From: Flavobacteriaceae bacterium CG2_30_31_66
GTDB taxonomy: Bacteria > Bacteroidota > Bacteroidia > Flavobacteriales > Flavobacteriaceae
Direction of reading: 5' to 3'
Length of the DNA stretch: 64,000 nt
Assembly: GCA_001873065.1 (NCBI GenBank)
Contig: MNYM01000050.1
Coordinates: 49,616-113,615 of the forward strand
Shown: piece by piece, positions 40,241 through 48,723 of the stretch
Numbering within the stretch: position 1 is the stretch's first letter
Layout of the letters: every line of letters begins with the position of its first letter
Program-made: the position numbers and the translations under genes
The notes under the pieces: model-generated
The model's input: the letters and a program-made list of their open reading frames with translations, nothing else
Told to the model about the DNA's origin: nothing
Database searches by the model: none

Positions 40241-40525
40241 TTTTGGCATTTTTTTCATCTGAAATGTTATCATAAGCATGAATTACTTGGTTTCTTAGTC
40301 CGATAATTGCTTTTGCATTGGTGATTTTTTTAAGAAGGATTGATCGCGATTGATGATTCTATTCACTGCTTCACCAATAATCTCAAGGTTTCTTTCAGTA
40401 GCTCTTTTGAGTAGTATATTTTGTTTGTATTTGAAAAAATCCCTTTTTTCTTCCATAAAAAAACTTTCGATTTCATCAATACTTAACTTAATATCATAAA
40501 GCCATTTTAATATCCTTTCATCCAT
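40241..40525 (-). pseudogene. Frameshifted HepT (DUF86/HEPN) toxin
   Basis: MDERILKWLYDIKLSIDEIESFF...ERNLEIIGEAVNRI, then a frameshift near 40330; RNQVIHAYDNISDEKNAKI continues in another frame. Confidence 0.8.
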
Positions 40526-40817
40526 AAATTAATTCTTTTGATGAGTCTATAGCATTGATTAATATAGGATTTCTTAGGGTTTGCGCTTCAACTAAATCAA
40601 ACTTTCTGTTGTATAATTTTTATAAACTCTCTTTAAGATTCAAATAGTTATCAAAATACAAAGACTAATCGAATGATTTGAATGAAACAAGAAAATCTAT
40701 ATCGCTTTTGTCTGAGAAATTTGAATTCAAAGCAGAACCAAATAGATACAATTTTTTTACTTTGTGTCTAGTACATAATTTTTTTAAATCTGTTATTTTT
40801 TTATATTCTAGCTTCAT
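40518..40817 (-). pseudogene. MntA-like nucleotidyltransferase antitoxin with two in-frame stops
   Basis: MKLEYKKITDLKKLCTRHKVKKLYLFGSALNSNFSDKSDIDFLVSFKSFD*SLYFDNYLNLKESL*KLYNRKFDLVEAQTLRNPILINAIDSSKELIYG*; TAG at 40665-40667, TAA at 40620-40622. Confidence 0.85.
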
Positions 40818-41023: not shown

Positions 41024-41323
41024 TTAATTATTGATTTTTAAATCATCTTTCATTTGGTTTAACCTAGCCACACCACTTCTAGATAAGTTTAAATTTTTAT
41101 CTACAACACGTAACAATACTTTTTCTTTATGATAATTTCGAAATTTTAAACTAAACTTTTCGTCTTTGAATTCTGTAAGTTTATTCGATTCTGTCTTGTA
41201 TTCAACTTTTTCAAAATCAACTTTGTTTAGTTCTAAAAAATGATCTATTATTACTGATAGTGTATTAGGTTGCTTAAAATACACATTTTCCCTAATCCAA
41301 ATAAATAAAATAACTTTTTCCAA
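41024..41323 (-). CDS. Hypothetical protein (uncertain)
   Basis: 99-aa ORF with plausible composition; no recognisable family. Confidence 0.3.
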   Translation of the reverse strand: MEKVILFIWIRENVYFKQPNTLSVIIDHFLELNKVDFEKVEYKTESNKLTEFKDEKFSLKFRNYHKEKVLLRVVDKNLNLSRSGVARLNQMKDDLKINN

Positions 41324-41379
41324 TTTTCATTTGGTATTTTAAAAATAAAATTTCGATATTTGCAGCTCAATAAAAAGAC

Positions 41380-41436
41380 ATGACATTTATTCAAGCGCAT
41401 CACCATCATTTTTACAATTGCTCTCAAGCGATTTAA
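41380..41436 (+). CDS. hisL: Putative histidine operon leader peptide (18 aa)
   Basis: ATG ACA TTT ATT CAA GCG CAT CAC CAT CAT TTT TAC AAT TGC TCT CAA GCG ATT TAA = MTFIQAHHHHFYNCSQAI*, four consecutive His codons, followed by a terminator and hisG. Confidence 0.88.
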   Translation: MTFIQAHHHHFYNCSQAI

Positions 41437-41466
41437 AAATGTATTGAATAAATTCAAGATATTTAT

Positions 41467-41497
41467 AAACCCGTTTGAGCAAATCAAACGGGTTTTT
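41467..41497 (+). terminator. his attenuator terminator hairpin
   Basis: AAACCCGTTTG-AGCAAAT-CAAACGGGTTTTT, between hisL and hisG. Confidence 0.9.
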
Positions 41498-41536
41498 AGT
41501 TGAATCCATTTTGCTCAAACACAACACACAAAAAAA

Positions 41537-42394
41537 ATGAGTAACTTACGTATAGCCATTCAAAAAGCAGGAAGATTACATGACGAATCCATGGAAATCT
41601 TAAAAGACATTGGGATTTCTATTGACAACGGAAAAGACCAACTCAAAGCCTCAGCCAGAGATTTTCCAGTAGAAGTTTTTTATTTACGCAATGGAGACAT
41701 TCCTCAATATTTGCGTGATGGAGTAGTAGATGCAGCCATTATTGGCGAAAATATTCTCATCGAAAAAGGGAATGATTTGCCATTTGTAGAGCGTCTAGGT
41801 TTTTCGAAATGCAAAGTTTCAATTGCCGTTCCAAAAGAGACTGATGCCACGTCTTTAAAGGATTTGGCTGGCAAAGAAATTGCAACTTCTTATCCTGAAA
41901 CTGTACAACGTTTTTTGGATGCACAAGGCATTTCAGCCAAATTACACATCATCAATGGCTCAGTAGAAATTGCGCCAAATATTGGCTTGGCAGATGGTAT
42001 TTGCGACATCGTTTCTAGTGGAAGCACGCTTTTTAAAAACGGATTGAAAGAAATTGAAGTGTTATTACAATCGGAAGCTGTCTTGGCAATTTCACCAAAA
42101 ATGGATGCTGAACGCAAAGCAATTTTAGAAAAAATTCAATTCAGAATTCAGGCAGTTTTAAAAGGCAGACAGTCCAAATATATTTTGCTAAATGCGCCAA
42201 ATGACAAATTGGATGCTATCATTCAGATTTTACCAGGAATGAGAAGTCCAACAGTGTTGCCTTTGGCAGAAAAAGGATGGAGTTCTGTGCACACAGTAAT
42301 TAGCAAAAATCAGTTTTGGGAAATCATTGATGCGCTAAAAAGCAAAGGTGCAGAAGGAATTTTAGTTTGTCCAATCGAAAAAATGGTATTGTAA
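41537..42394 (+). CDS. hisG: ATP phosphoribosyltransferase
   Basis: LRIAIQKAGRLHDESMEIL; GICDIVSSGSTLFKNGL. Confidence 0.96.
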   Translation: MSNLRIAIQKAGRLHDESMEILKDIGISIDNGKDQLKASARDFPVEVFYLRNGDIPQYLRDGVVDAAIIGENILIEKGNDLPFVERLGFSKCKVSIAVPKETDATSLKDLAGKEIATSYPETVQRFLDAQGISAKLHIINGSVEIAPNIGLADGICDIVSSGSTLFKNGLKEIEVLLQSEAVLAISPKMDAERKAILEKIQFRIQAVLKGRQSKYILLNAPNDKLDAIIQILPGMRSPTVLPLAEKGWSSVHTVISKNQFWEIIDALKSKGAEGILVCPIEKMVL

Positions 42395-43677
42395 TGAAAA
42401 CGATTCTAAATCCAGCAAAAACAGCTTGGAAAACCATCTTAGAAAGACCCACAAAAACAGTGGATGATATTGAAAAAACAGTGTTGCAAATCTTTGACGA
42501 TGTTCAAAAAAACGGTGATGCAGCTGTGGATAAATACACTTCATTGTTTGATGGAGTTCAATTGAATCAAAAATTGGTGACAACAGCTGAAATTGAGAAA
42601 GCCATTCAGACTGTTTCATCTGATTTAAAAGAAGCCATCAGAGTTGCGCATCAAAATATCTCGCTATTTCACAAAGTACAAAAAACTGAAAAAGTTGCTG
42701 TAGAAACTTACAGAGGTGTGTTTTGTTGGCAAGAAAAAAGACCAATTCAAAAAGTAGGTTTGTACATTCCTGGAGGAACAGCACCTTTATTTTCAACAGT
42801 ATTGATGTTGGCAATTCCTGCGCAAATAGCAGGTTGTAAAGAAATTGTTTTGTGCTCACCACCCAACAAAGAAGGGAACATTCATCCAGCCATTTTATAT
42901 GCTGCTAATTTGTGTGGCGTTACCAAAATTATAAAAGTAGGAGGCATTCAAGCCATTGCAGGATTGACTTTTGGCACTGCTGATATTCCGCAAGTGTATA
43001 AAATATTTGGTCCAGGAAATCAGTTTGTAACGGTTGCCAAACAATTAGCTACCAAATACGGAGTTGCTATTGATATGCCTGCAGGACCTAGCGAATTATT
43101 AGTAGTTGCTGATGAGTCTGCAAAGGCAAGTTATGTAGCCTCAGATTTATTAAGTCAGGCAGAGCATGGCATTGATAGTCAGGTTATTTTGGTCTCTACA
43201 TCTAAAGTATTGATTCAAGAAGTTGCTGATGAAATTTCGAAGCAAATAGTGCAATTGCCAAGAAAAGAAATTGCAGTAAAAGCGATTGAAAACTCCAAAT
43301 CTATCTTTGTTGAAACGGATGCAATTGCTTTGGATTTGATAAACGAATATGGTCCTGAACATTTTATTGTAGCCACCAAAAACAATGCTTTTTATGTGGA
43401 AAATATTACGAATGCAGGGTCTGTTTTTATTGGAAATTACACGCCAGAGAGTGCAGGCGATTATGCTTCAGGAACCAATCATACATTGCCCACAAACGGA
43501 TTTAGCAAAGCGTATTCAGGCGTGAATTTGGATAGTTTTTTAAAGAGCATTACATTTCAAGAAATCTCTAAAGATGGTATTCAAAGATTGGGAAAATTTA
43601 TTGAGATTATGGCTGAAGCAGAAGGATTGCAAGCACACAAAAACGCAGTTACACTCAGATTAAACGATTTGAAATGA
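42394..43677 (+). CDS. hisD: Histidinol dehydrogenase
   Basis: QKVGLYIPGGTAPLFSTVLML, DMPAGPSELLVVAD; ATG at 42394 overlaps hisG stop (TAATG). Confidence 0.96.
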   Translation: MKTILNPAKTAWKTILERPTKTVDDIEKTVLQIFDDVQKNGDAAVDKYTSLFDGVQLNQKLVTTAEIEKAIQTVSSDLKEAIRVAHQNISLFHKVQKTEKVAVETYRGVFCWQEKRPIQKVGLYIPGGTAPLFSTVLMLAIPAQIAGCKEIVLCSPPNKEGNIHPAILYAANLCGVTKIIKVGGIQAIAGLTFGTADIPQVYKIFGPGNQFVTVAKQLATKYGVAIDMPAGPSELLVVADESAKASYVASDLLSQAEHGIDSQVILVSTSKVLIQEVADEISKQIVQLPRKEIAVKAIENSKSIFVETDAIALDLINEYGPEHFIVATKNNAFYVENITNAGSVFIGNYTPESAGDYASGTNHTLPTNGFSKAYSGVNLDSFLKSITFQEISKDGIQRLGKFIEIMAEAEGLQAHKNAVTLRLNDLK

Positions 43678-44723
43678 AATCAATTTTAGAGTTGGTTAGA
43701 GAAAATATAAGGTCTTTAAAACCCTATTCATCAGCTAGAGATGAATACAAAGATTTGGCTATCAATGACATGATTTTTTTGGATGCCAATGAAAATCCGT
43801 TCGAAAATGGTGTAAATAGATATCCTGATCCTCAGCAAATTAGTGTGAAAAAAGCCTTGGCAAATATTAAAAATGTCAATGAAAAAAACATGTTACTTGG
43901 CAATGGAAGTGATGAAGTATTGGATTTGTTGTTTAGAGCGTTTTGCGAACCCAACAAAGACAATATTATTACGTTGCCACCAACATATGGCATGTATTCG
44001 GTTTTGGCTTCACTCAATGCTATTGAAGATCGAAAAGTACTGTTATCCGCTGATTTTCAGCCTCAAATTTCACAGATTTTAGCTGCTGTTAATGTAAATT
44101 CTAAAATATTATTTTTATGTTCGCCAAACAATCCCTCAGGAAATAGTTTTTCTGAGGAGGCTATTGAAACCTTATTGAAAAATTTTCAAGGGTTGGTTGT
44201 TATTGACGAAGCCTATATCGATTTTTCAACACAAGAAAGTTGGTTGAAAAAACTGAATGAATATTCGAATTTGGTCATCACGCAAACCCTTTCGAAAGCT
44301 TATGGAATGGCAGGAGTTCGTCTGGGAATTTGTTATGCTTCCGAAGAAATTATTCGAATTTTAAACAACATCAAGCCTCCCTATAATATCAACGAATTGA
44401 CACAGCAAAAAGCGTTGGAACGATTGCAAGATAGCAAAGGAGTAGCTCAAGAAATTGAGGCAATTTTAGCAGAAAGAGAACAATTGGCAAATGCCTTGAA
44501 AAGCATTTCATTTATTGAAAAAATCTACGAATCAGATGCGAATTTCATTCTGATAAAAGTAGATGATGCCACTAAAAGATACAGCGAATTGATTGTCAAA
44601 GGCATTGTGATTCGAAATAGAACAACACAACCTTTGTGCGAAAATACGCTGCGTTTGACAGTTGGAACTAAGGAAGAAAATGAGAAATTAATGAACGCTT
44701 TGCAGCAGTTAGCAAATAGCTAA
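43674..44723 (+). CDS. hisC: Histidinol-phosphate aminotransferase
   Basis: LDANENPFENGVNRYPDP, LSKAYGMAGVRLG; ATGA overlap with hisD. Confidence 0.96.
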   Translation: MKSILELVRENIRSLKPYSSARDEYKDLAINDMIFLDANENPFENGVNRYPDPQQISVKKALANIKNVNEKNMLLGNGSDEVLDLLFRAFCEPNKDNIITLPPTYGMYSVLASLNAIEDRKVLLSADFQPQISQILAAVNVNSKILFLCSPNNPSGNSFSEEAIETLLKNFQGLVVIDEAYIDFSTQESWLKKLNEYSNLVITQTLSKAYGMAGVRLGICYASEEIIRILNNIKPPYNINELTQQKALERLQDSKGVAQEIEAILAEREQLANALKSISFIEKIYESDANFILIKVDDATKRYSELIVKGIVIRNRTTQPLCENTLRLTVGTKEENEKLMNALQQLANS

Positions 44724-44747
44724 TAGCCAAAAGCCAAAAGCTAAAAA

Positions 44748-45857
44748 ATGAAGAAAGTATTATTTATAGACAGAGATGGCACATTAGTAATTGAGCCACC
44801 TATTGATTATCAATTAGATAGTTTAGAAAAACTGGAATTTTATCCAGGTGTTTTTCGTTCGTTGGGCAAAATTGCTGAGGAATTAGATTTTGAATTGGTG
44901 ATGGTTACCAATCAAGATGGTTTGGGAACGAATTCTTTTCCTGAAGATATTTTTTGGCCTGCACATAACAAAATGATGAAAGCCTTTGAAAATGAAGGAA
45001 TTATTTTTAAAGAAGTGTTGATTGACAAATCATTTCCTCATGAAAATGCACCTACCAGAAAACCAAGAACGGCAATGTTAACCAAGTATTTTTCGGAGGA
45101 TTATGATTTGCAAAATTCTTATGTAATTGGTGATCGTTTGACGGATATTGAATTGGCTGAAAACCTGAATGCAAAAGGAATTTTAATCAGTAATGATGAA
45201 GATTTGAGCTATAAAAATGATACACAAATTCTGAAAACGAACAATTGGAAACGCATTTACGAGTTTTTGAAAGCCAAACAACGCACAGGAAGCATTATTA
45301 GAAACACGAATGAAACAAAAATTGCAATTGACATCAATTTAGATGGCACAGGAAAAAGCAACATCCATACAGGAATTGCTTTTTTTGACCACATGTTAGA
45401 CCAAATTGCACGTCATGGGCAATTGGATTTGAACATCAACGTTGAGGGCGATTTGGAAGTGGACGAACATCACACCATTGAAGACACTGCGATTGCTTTG
45501 GGCGAACTATTTGCAGTGACTTTGGGAAACAAATTAGGCATTGAACGTTATGGATTTTCATTGCCCATGGACGATTGTTTTGCACAAGCAGCTATTGATT
45601 TTGGCGGACGAAATTGGTTGGTTTGGGAAGCTGATTTTAAACGAGAAATGATTGGACAAGTGCCCACAGAAATGTTTTTTCATTTCTTTAAATCCTTTAC
45701 TGATGGTGCAAAATGCAACTTAAATATCAAAGCAGAAGGTACAAACGAACACCATAAAATTGAAGCTATTTTCAAAGCCTTCGCCAAAGCTATTAAAATG
45801 GCAGTGAAAAGAGATGTGGAGAAAATGATTTTGCCGAGCACGAAAGGGGTTTTATAA
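44748..45857 (+). CDS. hisB: Bifunctional histidinol-phosphatase / imidazoleglycerol-phosphate dehydratase
   Basis: [13 protein letters not shown] (HAD) plus [30 protein letters not shown]. Confidence 0.97.
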
Positions 45858-45930
45858 TTAGTTGATAGTTTCTGGTTTTTGGTTTATAGTAAAAACCATC
45901 AACCAACAACCAACAACCAACAACATTAAA

Positions 45931-46524
45931 ATGAATTTAATTATCATTGATTACGGAGCAGGAAATATCAAGAGCATTCAATTTGCTTTTAAAAGATTGG
46001 GAATTGAAGCTATTTTGTCAAGCAATATCGAAGAAATAAAAGCAGCAGACAAAGTCATTTTTCCTGGAGTTGGAGAAGCTAGTTCTGCCATGAAAATGCT
46101 GATTGAAAGCGGATTGCATACTGTAATTCCGAGGTTGAAACAACCAGTTTTGGGCATTTGTTTGGGAATGCAATTGATGTGTAATTCTTCAGAAGAAGGA
46201 AACACACAAGGATTAGGAATTTTTGATGTGACCGTAAAACGATTTTCAAATGCAGTGAAAGTGCCACAAATGGGTTGGAATGTGATTAAAGAATTGAAAT
46301 CACCCTTATTTTCTGGAATTAAAGAAAATGAATTTATGTATTTGGTGCACAGTTATTACGCAGCATTGTGTGAAGAAACCATTGCAAAAACCGATTACGA
46401 ATTCGAATATTCATCAGCATTACAGAAAGATAATTTTTATGGAGTACAATTTCATCCAGAAAAAAGTGGCTTAGAAGGAGAGCGAATTTTGAAGAATTTT
46501 TTGGAACTTAAAACTAACAACTAA
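45931..46524 (+). CDS. hisH: Imidazole glycerol phosphate synthase glutaminase subunit
   Basis: MNLIIIDYGAGNIKS, LGICLGMQLM, GVQFHPEKSG; ATG at 45931, track start 45862 is an extension. Confidence 0.95.
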   Translation: MNLIIIDYGAGNIKSIQFAFKRLGIEAILSSNIEEIKAADKVIFPGVGEASSAMKMLIESGLHTVIPRLKQPVLGICLGMQLMCNSSEEGNTQGLGIFDVTVKRFSNAVKVPQMGWNVIKELKSPLFSGIKENEFMYLVHSYYAALCEETIAKTDYEFEYSSALQKDNFYGVQFHPEKSGLEGERILKNFLELKTNN

Positions 46525-46539
46525 AGACTAGCAACTATT

Positions 46540-47295
46540 TTGAGAATCATCCCAGCCATAGACATTATTGACGGAAAATGTGTTCGTTTAACAAAAGGCG
46601 ATTACAATACAAAGAAGATTTACAACGAAAATCCATTGGAAATTGCTAAAGGATTTGAAGCTGCAGGCATTCAATATTTGCATGTGGTAGATTTAGATGG
46701 CGCAAAAGCAAGTCAGATTGTGAATCATAAAGTGTTATCAGAAATTGCCACAAAAACCAATTTAAAAATTGACTTTGGAGGTGGATTAAAGTCTGATAAA
46801 GATTTGGAAATTGCGTTTAATTCTGGCGCAAATCAAATTACTGGAGGCAGTATTGCAGTTAAAAATAAGGAAGTTTTTGAACGCTGGATTGCCAAATTTG
46901 GCGCTGAGAAAATCATTTTAGGAGCAGATTTTTATCCTGATTCAACAGGAGGTAAAATTGCGACCAATGGTTGGCAAGAAGAGAGTGAATTGGCATTGAT
47001 TCCTTTTATACAATCGTATCAAACCAAAGGAATTCACTATGTAATTTGCACAGATATTTCAAAAGACGGCATGTTGCAAGGACCAAGTTTTGAGATGTAT
47101 AGTGAAGTTTTATCCGAAGCAAAAAATCTAAAACTCATTGCTTCAGGAGGAATTTCAACTTTTGATGAGTTGCCAAAACTAGCTGCAATTGGTTGTGAAG
47201 GAGTCATTATCGGAAAAGCGATTTATGAACATAAAATCAGTTTGAAACAATTAGAACAATTTATTAGCACCTACAAGGTTTCAAAAACCTTGTAG
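46540..47295 (+). CDS. hisA: ProFAR isomerase (TTG start)
   Basis: [22 protein letters not shown]-terminus TYKVSKTL encoded within a palindromic repeat. Confidence 0.95.
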
Positions 47296-47298
47296 GTG
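47268..47298. repeat. Dispersed palindrome, CCTACAAGGTTT family, overlapping hisA 3' end
   Basis: CACCTACAAGGTTT-CAA-AAACCTTGTAGGTG, perfect 14-bp stem. Confidence 0.9.
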
Positions 47299-47322
47299 TA
47301 ACAAAAACAATATTATAAATAG

Positions 47323-47352
47323 ATACCTACAAGGTTTTTGAAACCTTATAGG
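47323..47352. repeat. Dispersed palindrome, CCTACAAGGTTT family, inverted copy
   Basis: ATACCTACAAGGTTT-TTG-AAACCTTATAGG. Confidence 0.88.
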
Positions 47353-47366
47353 AAAAGAAAAACAAT

Positions 47367-48122
47367 ATGCTTACAAAAAGAATCATTCCATGTTTGGATA
47401 TTAAAAACGGACGAACCGTAAAAGGAATCAATTTCGTCAATTTGATTGATGCAGGAGATCCTGTAGTTTTGGCGAAACAATATGCCAATTTAGGTGCTGA
47501 CGAACTCGTTTTTTTAGATATCTCTGCTACGTTAGAAGGCAGAAAAACCATGATTGAAATGGTGCATCAAGTAGCAGAACAAGTAAATATTCCGTTTACT
47601 GTGGGAGGTGGAATTTCTTCCGTTGAAAACGTCAATGAATTGTTGAAATGGGGCGCAGACAAGGTTTCTATCAATTCTTCTGCTGTTAAAAGATCTGATT
47701 TAATTAGTGAATTAGCAGATAAATTTGGGAGTCAATGTGTGGTTGTTGCTATTGATGCCAAGCAAATTGAAGGAGAATGGTTTGTGCATTTGGCAGGAGG
47801 CACCATCCCAACAGAAATCAAACTTTTTGATTGGGCCCAAGAAGTTGAAAAACGTGGTGCAGGCGAAATTTTATTTACATCCATGAATCATGATGGCACT
47901 AAAAACGGATTTGCCAATGAAGCATTAGCAGCTTTGTCCAGTTTGGTAAATATCCCTATTATTGCTTCTGGTGGCGCAGGAACAATGCAACATTTTGTAG
48001 ATACTTTCAAAGAGGGAAAAGCAGATGCAGCTTTGGCAGCAAGCGTTTTTCACTTTGGAGAAATTCCGATTATGGATTTAAAACAAGAATTAAAAAGGAA
48101 TAATATTTCAGTAAGACTTTAA
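47367..48122 (+). CDS. hisF: Imidazole glycerol phosphate synthase cyclase subunit
   Basis: [23 protein letters not shown]. Confidence 0.96.
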
Positions 48123-48123
48123 T

Positions 48124-48723
48124 ATGAAAATAGATTTTAACAAAAATAACGATGGCTTAGTCCCTGCAATTATTCAAGACGTTACTACAAAAAACGTTTT
48201 GATGCTGGGTTATATGAATGAAGAAGCCTATCAAAAAACCATTGACACAAAGTTGGTTACGTTTTTTTCACGAACAAAAAATCGTTTGTGGACAAAAGGC
48301 GAAGAAAGTGGCAATGTGCTCAATTTAGTAGCTATCAAACTGGATTGTGATCATGATACTTTATTGATTTCTGTCAATCCAACAGGACCTACTTGTCATA
48401 AAGGGACTGATACTTGTTGGGCTGAAAATAACGAACAAAACTTCGGATTTTTAACGCATTTAGAAAATACAATTACAGACAGAATTCAAAATTCAGATGC
48501 CAAAAAAAGTTATGTAGCCTCTTTGTTTGCCAAAGGAATCAATAAAATTGCGCAGAAAGTAGGAGAGGAGGCAATTGAAGTGGTGATTGAGGCAAAAGAC
48601 AGTAATGACGACCTTTTTTTGAATGAAAGTGCTGATTTACTATTTCATTTTTTGATGTTATTGCAAGCAAAAGGTTTTAAATTGAATGATGTTGTGGAAG
48701 TTTTAAAGGGGAGAGAAAAGTAG
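48124..48723 (+). CDS. hisIE: Bifunctional phosphoribosyl-AMP cyclohydrolase / phosphoribosyl-ATP pyrophosphatase
   Basis: VLMLGYMNEEAYQKT, FFSRTKNRLWTKGEESGN, KVGEEAIEVVIEAK. Confidence 0.96.
   Translation: MKIDFNKNNDGLVPAIIQDVTTKNVLMLGYMNEEAYQKTIDTKLVTFFSRTKNRLWTKGEESGNVLNLVAIKLDCDHDTLLISVNPTGPTCHKGTDTCWAENNEQNFGFLTHLENTITDRIQNSDAKKSYVASLFAKGINKIAQKVGEEAIEVVIEAKDSNDDLFLNESADLLFHFLMLLQAKGFKLNDVVEVLKGREK

Follow-up and report, generated by a model that had tools for sequence, protein, structure and literature searches.

The window, that is, the whole 64,000-nt stretch of DNA analysed here, lies on contig 49 of a 2.99-Mb genome and contains a complete histidine biosynthesis operon, preceded by a short His-rich leader ORF. 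All eight proteins of the operon, including the bifunctional hisB product, exceed the curated NCBIfam cut-offs, and the nearest named relatives of its hisG are from Polaribacter (protein identity 93-94%). The features of the region are as follows:

41330-41362, plus strand: probable Bacteroidota sigma-A promoter, with a -33 box TTTG at 41330-41333 and a -7 box GATATTTG at 41355-41362 (compare TAnnTTTG)
41380-41436, plus strand: hisL leader peptide ORF, MTFIQAHHHHFYNCSQAI, 18 codons and a TAA stop (re-read sequence, conservation)
41398-41409, plus strand: four consecutive His codons, CAT CAC CAT CAT, the predicted ribosome stall site (sequence, conservation)
41423-41430, plus strand: 5' strand of the antiterminator, CTCAAGCG, within the 3' end of hisL, codons 15-17 (class-wide covariation)
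41467-41497, plus strand: intrinsic terminator, AAACCCGTTTGA-GCAAA-TCAAACGGGTTT-TT (sequence, folding, conservation)
41472-41479, plus strand: 5' arm of the terminator, CGTTTGAG, common to the antiterminator, the terminator 3' arm and the downstream element
41510-41520, plus strand: downstream element, TTTGCTCAAAC, a perfect complement of 41473-41483 (terminator 5' arm and loop)
41537-48723, plus strand: the regulated operon hisG-hisD-hisC-hisB(NB)-hisH-hisA-hisF-hisIE (NCBIfam)

All features named in the initial annotation were read again and matched base for base, among them the 18-codon hisL with its four consecutive His codons and the hisG gene after the terminator, whose ATG at 41537 heads the operon. 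Application of the Bacteroidota promoter consensus (PMC9723704) yielded the promoter listed above, from which transcription would be expected to start near 41367-41370, about 10-13 nt 5' of hisL; across 80 related leaders, TTTG is found again, mostly from -20 to -23 and from -50 to -52 relative to hisL.

An intrinsic terminator lies between the leader ORF and the first gene of the operon. The initial annotation had rightly placed a strong terminator before hisG, but its stem, begun at 41470, was too short: the hairpin has 12 bp, including AAA/TTT, and extends over 41467-41497. The leader RNA folds with -37 kcal/mol (z = -5.25), and none of 200 shuffles was equally stable. A simple terminator scanner did not list the 41467-41497 hairpin, presumably because the U-run is largely absorbed into the extended stem.

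The distribution of this arrangement was analysed at two levels, in 80 loci from the Flavobacteriaceae and in 80 hisG upstream regions sampled from the order and the class. One family locus is cut off by a contig end, leaving 79 named loci that can be scored for hisL, and all 79 have a His-run ORF 5' of hisG, usually 150-180 nt upstream of it. An equivalent terminator hairpin of the form CCCGTTTGA-loop-TCAAACGGG-T was called after hisL in 80/80 family leaders. Class-wide, 66 of the 80 upstream regions have a His-dense short ORF, and 58 combine it with a strong terminator. The ORF by itself was found in none of the reverse complements, in 1.8% of shuffles and in 1.8% of 300-nt chunks of other loci, and the combination was absent from all controls (0/80 reverse complements, 0/800 shuffles, 0/1128 chunks). 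The initial annotation had made its proposal depend on the conservation of His codons and hairpin in orthologous hisG leaders, and they are conserved in both samples. A short ORF that happens to lie beside the ordinary terminator of an upstream gene, with no regulatory tie, would not be surprising in AT-rich DNA, where short ORFs are common, yet no tool result backs such a coincidence, and the class-wide frequencies (66/80 versus 1.8% of shuffles; 58/80 versus 0/800 with the terminator) leave it with a negligible probability; we rejected it on the grounds of conservation. Because 58 of 80 upstream regions carry the arrangement versus none of the controls, the His-leader attenuator is close to class-wide in the Bacteroidia. 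This supports the view that histidine synthesis is, by default, probably controlled through leader-peptide attenuation across this large class, in which such regulation is hardly described in searchable papers.

The comparison of 45 distinct 18-codon versions of hisL points to an ORF that evolves like a translated regulatory ORF. Each of the His codons 7-10 is kept in 42-44 versions, several other residues are variable, and all three stop codons are in use. The final codons are constrained at the RNA level: Ala17 is encoded by GCG in 45/45 versions despite the synonymous GCA, GCC and GCT, and Gln16 occurs as CAA, CAG or, as Arg, CGA, with the pairing to the terminator arm kept through G-U, two sequences having ATC instead.

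The pairing of these codons with the terminator arm, CTCAAGCG with CGTTTGAG, had been proposed earlier as a candidate antiterminator. As this pairing is too invariant within the family, covariation was assessed class-wide, with 59 leaders comprising 30 distinct terminator arms and permutation of the partners. The mean energy of the leaders' own pairing was -11.7 kcal/mol versus -8.4 kcal/mol for permuted partners, and 0/15000 permutations were as good, so that the proposal stands with class-wide support. Examples of the pairs are TCAAGCG:CGTTTGA in the present leader, GGTAGGC:GGCTTACC in other families, and AGGTAG:CTACCT. The pairing and the terminator are mutually exclusive. In masked folding, the antiterminator formed with a mean probability of 0.88 when a ribosome sat at the His codons before synthesis of the 3' arm; with the stop codon occupied by a ribosome, the terminator formed at 0.995. 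In these computations, a ribosome on the His codons exposes the antiterminator strand and a ribosome at the stop codon covers it. At equilibrium, with the 3' arm made, the terminator beats the antiterminator as well as the downstream-element hairpin in nearly all leaders. Equilibrium folding was for this reason dropped as evidence for either of the two competing folds, and the switch must be kinetic, as in the classical attenuation model.

Since hisL and the terminator are conserved and the antiterminator covaries, we consider the locus to be, with high probability, a ribosome-mediated transcription attenuator of the his operon, in agreement with the initial annotation, which had read it as histidine-operon attenuation with a His leader peptide. 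From the anatomy and the comparison of leaders we infer ribosome stalling, termination and the response to histidine. When charged His-tRNA is scarce, the ribosome would stall at the four His codons of hisL, so that CTCAAGCG could pair with the 5' arm of the terminator once this is transcribed, and RNA polymerase would enter hisG. When histidine is plentiful, the ribosome would proceed to the stop codon and mask CTCAAGCG, the terminator would form, and transcription would stop near 41497.

The enterobacterial his attenuator (hisL) consists of a leader peptide with consecutive His codons, a terminator before hisG and a mutually exclusive antiterminator. The present leader resembles it (His_leader RF00514) in its His-run peptide, its terminator and its exclusive antiterminator, and differs in that the antiterminator strand lies inside the 3' end of hisL and pairs directly with the terminator 5' arm, and in the presence of an additional element after the terminator. 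To our knowledge, classical his attenuators have no such extra element before the first gene, and the textbook model has no use for an element located after the terminator. Rfam searches of the window gave no family above the gathering cut-off, RF00514 being absent even at E<=1 and the T-box covariance model giving no match; a relaxed search returned chance-level matches alone (PyrG_leader, E 0.07, and similar). Vitreschak et al. 2004 reportedly mention candidates in Bacteroidetes, so the core attenuator may have been described earlier. A transcriptome study of F. psychrophilum (2021, PMC9723704) reports a structured element 5' of hisG that is conserved in Flavobacteriaceae and has no Rfam hit, as well as strong indications that operons for amino-acid biosynthesis are attenuated through leader peptides. 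It concerns the same gene and family, and its main text, as far as it was available, gives no structure, antiterminator or downstream element for hisG. Likewise, the His leaders of the Bacillus cereus group, Eubacteriales and Erysipelotrichales (PMC9413887) combine a His-run peptide, a terminator and an antiterminator; unlike the leaders studied here, those in the available part of that work are from Firmicutes only, and no post-terminator element is mentioned there. In a survey of the his genes of Bacteroidota from 2021, attenuation comes up for enterobacteria alone (PMC8305728). In the accessible literature, short of key subscription papers, we found no account of how widely the attenuator occurs in the class, of the covarying antiterminator or of the downstream element. 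The core attenuator is already foreshadowed by PMC9723704, and what is new is the downstream element.

This element, a conserved and covarying RNA element located after the terminator in one group of families, had been noted earlier as an 11-nt complement of 41473-41483 that would allow a third fold, and the comparison now supports the pairing. In the present leader it spans positions -27 to -17 relative to the hisG AUG, leaving 16 nt between its end and the start. Among the 80 Flavobacteriaceae leaders, pairing between the post-terminator region and the terminator apex had a mean z of -5.1 against shuffles, and a leader's own pairing averaged -15.4 kcal/mol versus -10.7 kcal/mol with partners from leaders with other loops. 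Changes in the loop are matched by the element, as in GTAAA/GATTTACTCAAA, GACAA/ATTGTTTCAAAC, ACTAA/TTTAGTTCAAA and GAACA/ATTTGATGTTTTCAA. With one representative per apex, a design that lessens and does not fully remove the relatedness between leaders, 0/15000 permutations reached the observed mean for 25 Flavobacteriaceae apices, and likewise 0/15000 for 15 apices of other families, a set picked after the element had already been seen there. A stricter, ungapped covariation test on the loop alone gave less support (6/20000; 198/10000 for the worst choice of a single sequence per loop). The complementarity covers mostly the loop and the 5' arm, in many leaders both arms, and in four the loop and the 3' arm.

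Many Polaribacter elements contain TATTTG, which is similar to a -7 box, and the element might accordingly be read as a second promoter or another DNA signal whose complementarity is a by-product. Families with other loops (GATTTACTCAAAC, GAGATTCTTAGAC) lose the TTTG and keep the complementarity, and this reading, to which we assign very little probability, was rejected. A generic upstream motif was rejected as well, as the 11-mer is no commoner than its reversal and only a single copy has an ATG 16 nt further on.

As transcription reaches the downstream element only after the terminator, the element can't affect termination and isn't an ordinary antiterminator; lying past the termination point, it would act only in read-through mRNA, where it would pair with the terminator loop and 5' arm. 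Its last paired base lies at a median of 16 nt from the hisG AUG (IQR 15-17), and its distance to the terminator has an IQR of 10-18. This fixed distance to the start codon points to translation. The element would then link the folding of the leader to the translation of hisG, possibly by gating leaked mRNA a second time. As a tentative interpretation from the leader comparison, we propose a translational gate on leaked hisG mRNA, perhaps involving a pseudoknot. The locus as a whole could equally tentatively be viewed as a two-stage attenuator, in which one 5' arm has three partners and a single leader controls both transcription and, via a terminator-loop pseudoknot, hisG translation. The downstream pairing may need a pseudoknot, a fold that the tools used can't score.

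Bacteroidota have no Shine-Dalgarno sites, and translation starts on unstructured mRNA. F. johnsoniae mRNAs show a depletion of structure between -20 and +20, translation is lower where structure does occur there, and positions -12 to -15 may be contacted by bS1 (PMC6847099). The downstream-element helix ends at -17, at the edge of the initiation region and just outside its core, and repression of translation is for this reason not certain. A structure fixed at this edge provides a ready-made test of the coupling between attenuation and translation in Bacteroidota.

Two other roles in the read-through mRNA were weighed. The element might merely remodel this mRNA by opening or capping the terminator hairpin, affecting stability or processing with no histidine-dependent role. 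The mean energies of the terminator and downstream-element folds are nearly equal (-16.6 versus -16.1 kcal/mol), as would suit such a role, and the full terminator (-16.6 kcal/mol) is also close to the lower stem plus the downstream pairing (-18.4 kcal/mol before any pseudoknot penalty). Remodelling leaves unexplained, however, why the element keeps its distance to the hisG start rather than to the terminator, and we consider it unlikely. Somewhat less probable still is an action in trans, in which the terminated hisL RNA, through its loop and 5' arm, would pair with the element of leaked hisG mRNA and block its translation or mark it for decay. The terminated RNA would accumulate when histidine is plentiful, the complementarity is equally usable in trans, a fixed site beside the start codon suits an sRNA target, and in Sinorhizobium meliloti the attenuator RNA rnTrpL acts on trpDC mRNA (PMC7298713). 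Against this, each hisG mRNA has its own terminator apex, so that pairing in cis should prevail. Genome-wide, the 11-mer shows no enrichment (8 matches versus 7 for the reversed control), and hisG has the only exact copy located 16 nt before an ATG. The translational gate acting in cis remains our preferred, if tentative, reading.

At the class level, the downstream element was found in 19 sampled leaders and, by eye, in a twentieth (L125) whose hairpin had been miscalled by the script; it was not found in GGCTTACC-type leaders or in most other sampled Bacteroidia his leaders. A few relatives lack it (L037, L054, L059, L103; L104 weak), and the element is therefore dispensable. In five leaders (L072, L081, L085, L086, L107), palindromic repeats inserted between the terminator and hisG lengthen the leader; the element is lost or unclear in L072, L081 and L107 and survives farther from the start in L085 and L086.

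Attenuators of other amino-acid operons were also seen in related genomes (L200-L215, L225-L237), with a leader peptide containing a WWW or an Ile/Val/Leu run and a terminator, and, in contrast to the his leaders, with no downstream element: in their trp and ilv leaders, the signal searched for was absent (mean z +0.5 and +0.3), and the idea that all attenuators here carry the element was rejected. In relatives (L230-L237), ilvD has an ilv attenuator composed of a branched-chain leader peptide, IISIIIVIVIIT, and of a terminator some 200 nt before the gene; in the genome studied here (L239), no ilv leader attenuator was found within 400 nt of ilvD. A WWW leader peptide precedes trpE in this genome (MKNQKNIWWWNSLKN, contig 31, L210) and in relatives (L200-L215), followed by the terminator GGCTTATC-TCAC-GATAAGCC, forming a trp attenuator that lacks the downstream element.

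On the other side of the his promoter, the window contains an adjoining 99-aa ORF on the minus strand (41024-41323), which has no Pfam match and is probably a gene remnant. Farther away, also on the minus strand, a decayed HepT/MNT toxin-antitoxin pair is left at 40295-40817, with fragments of the HepT ribonuclease (PF01934) and of the nucleotidyltransferase antitoxin (PF01909), both of them truncated.
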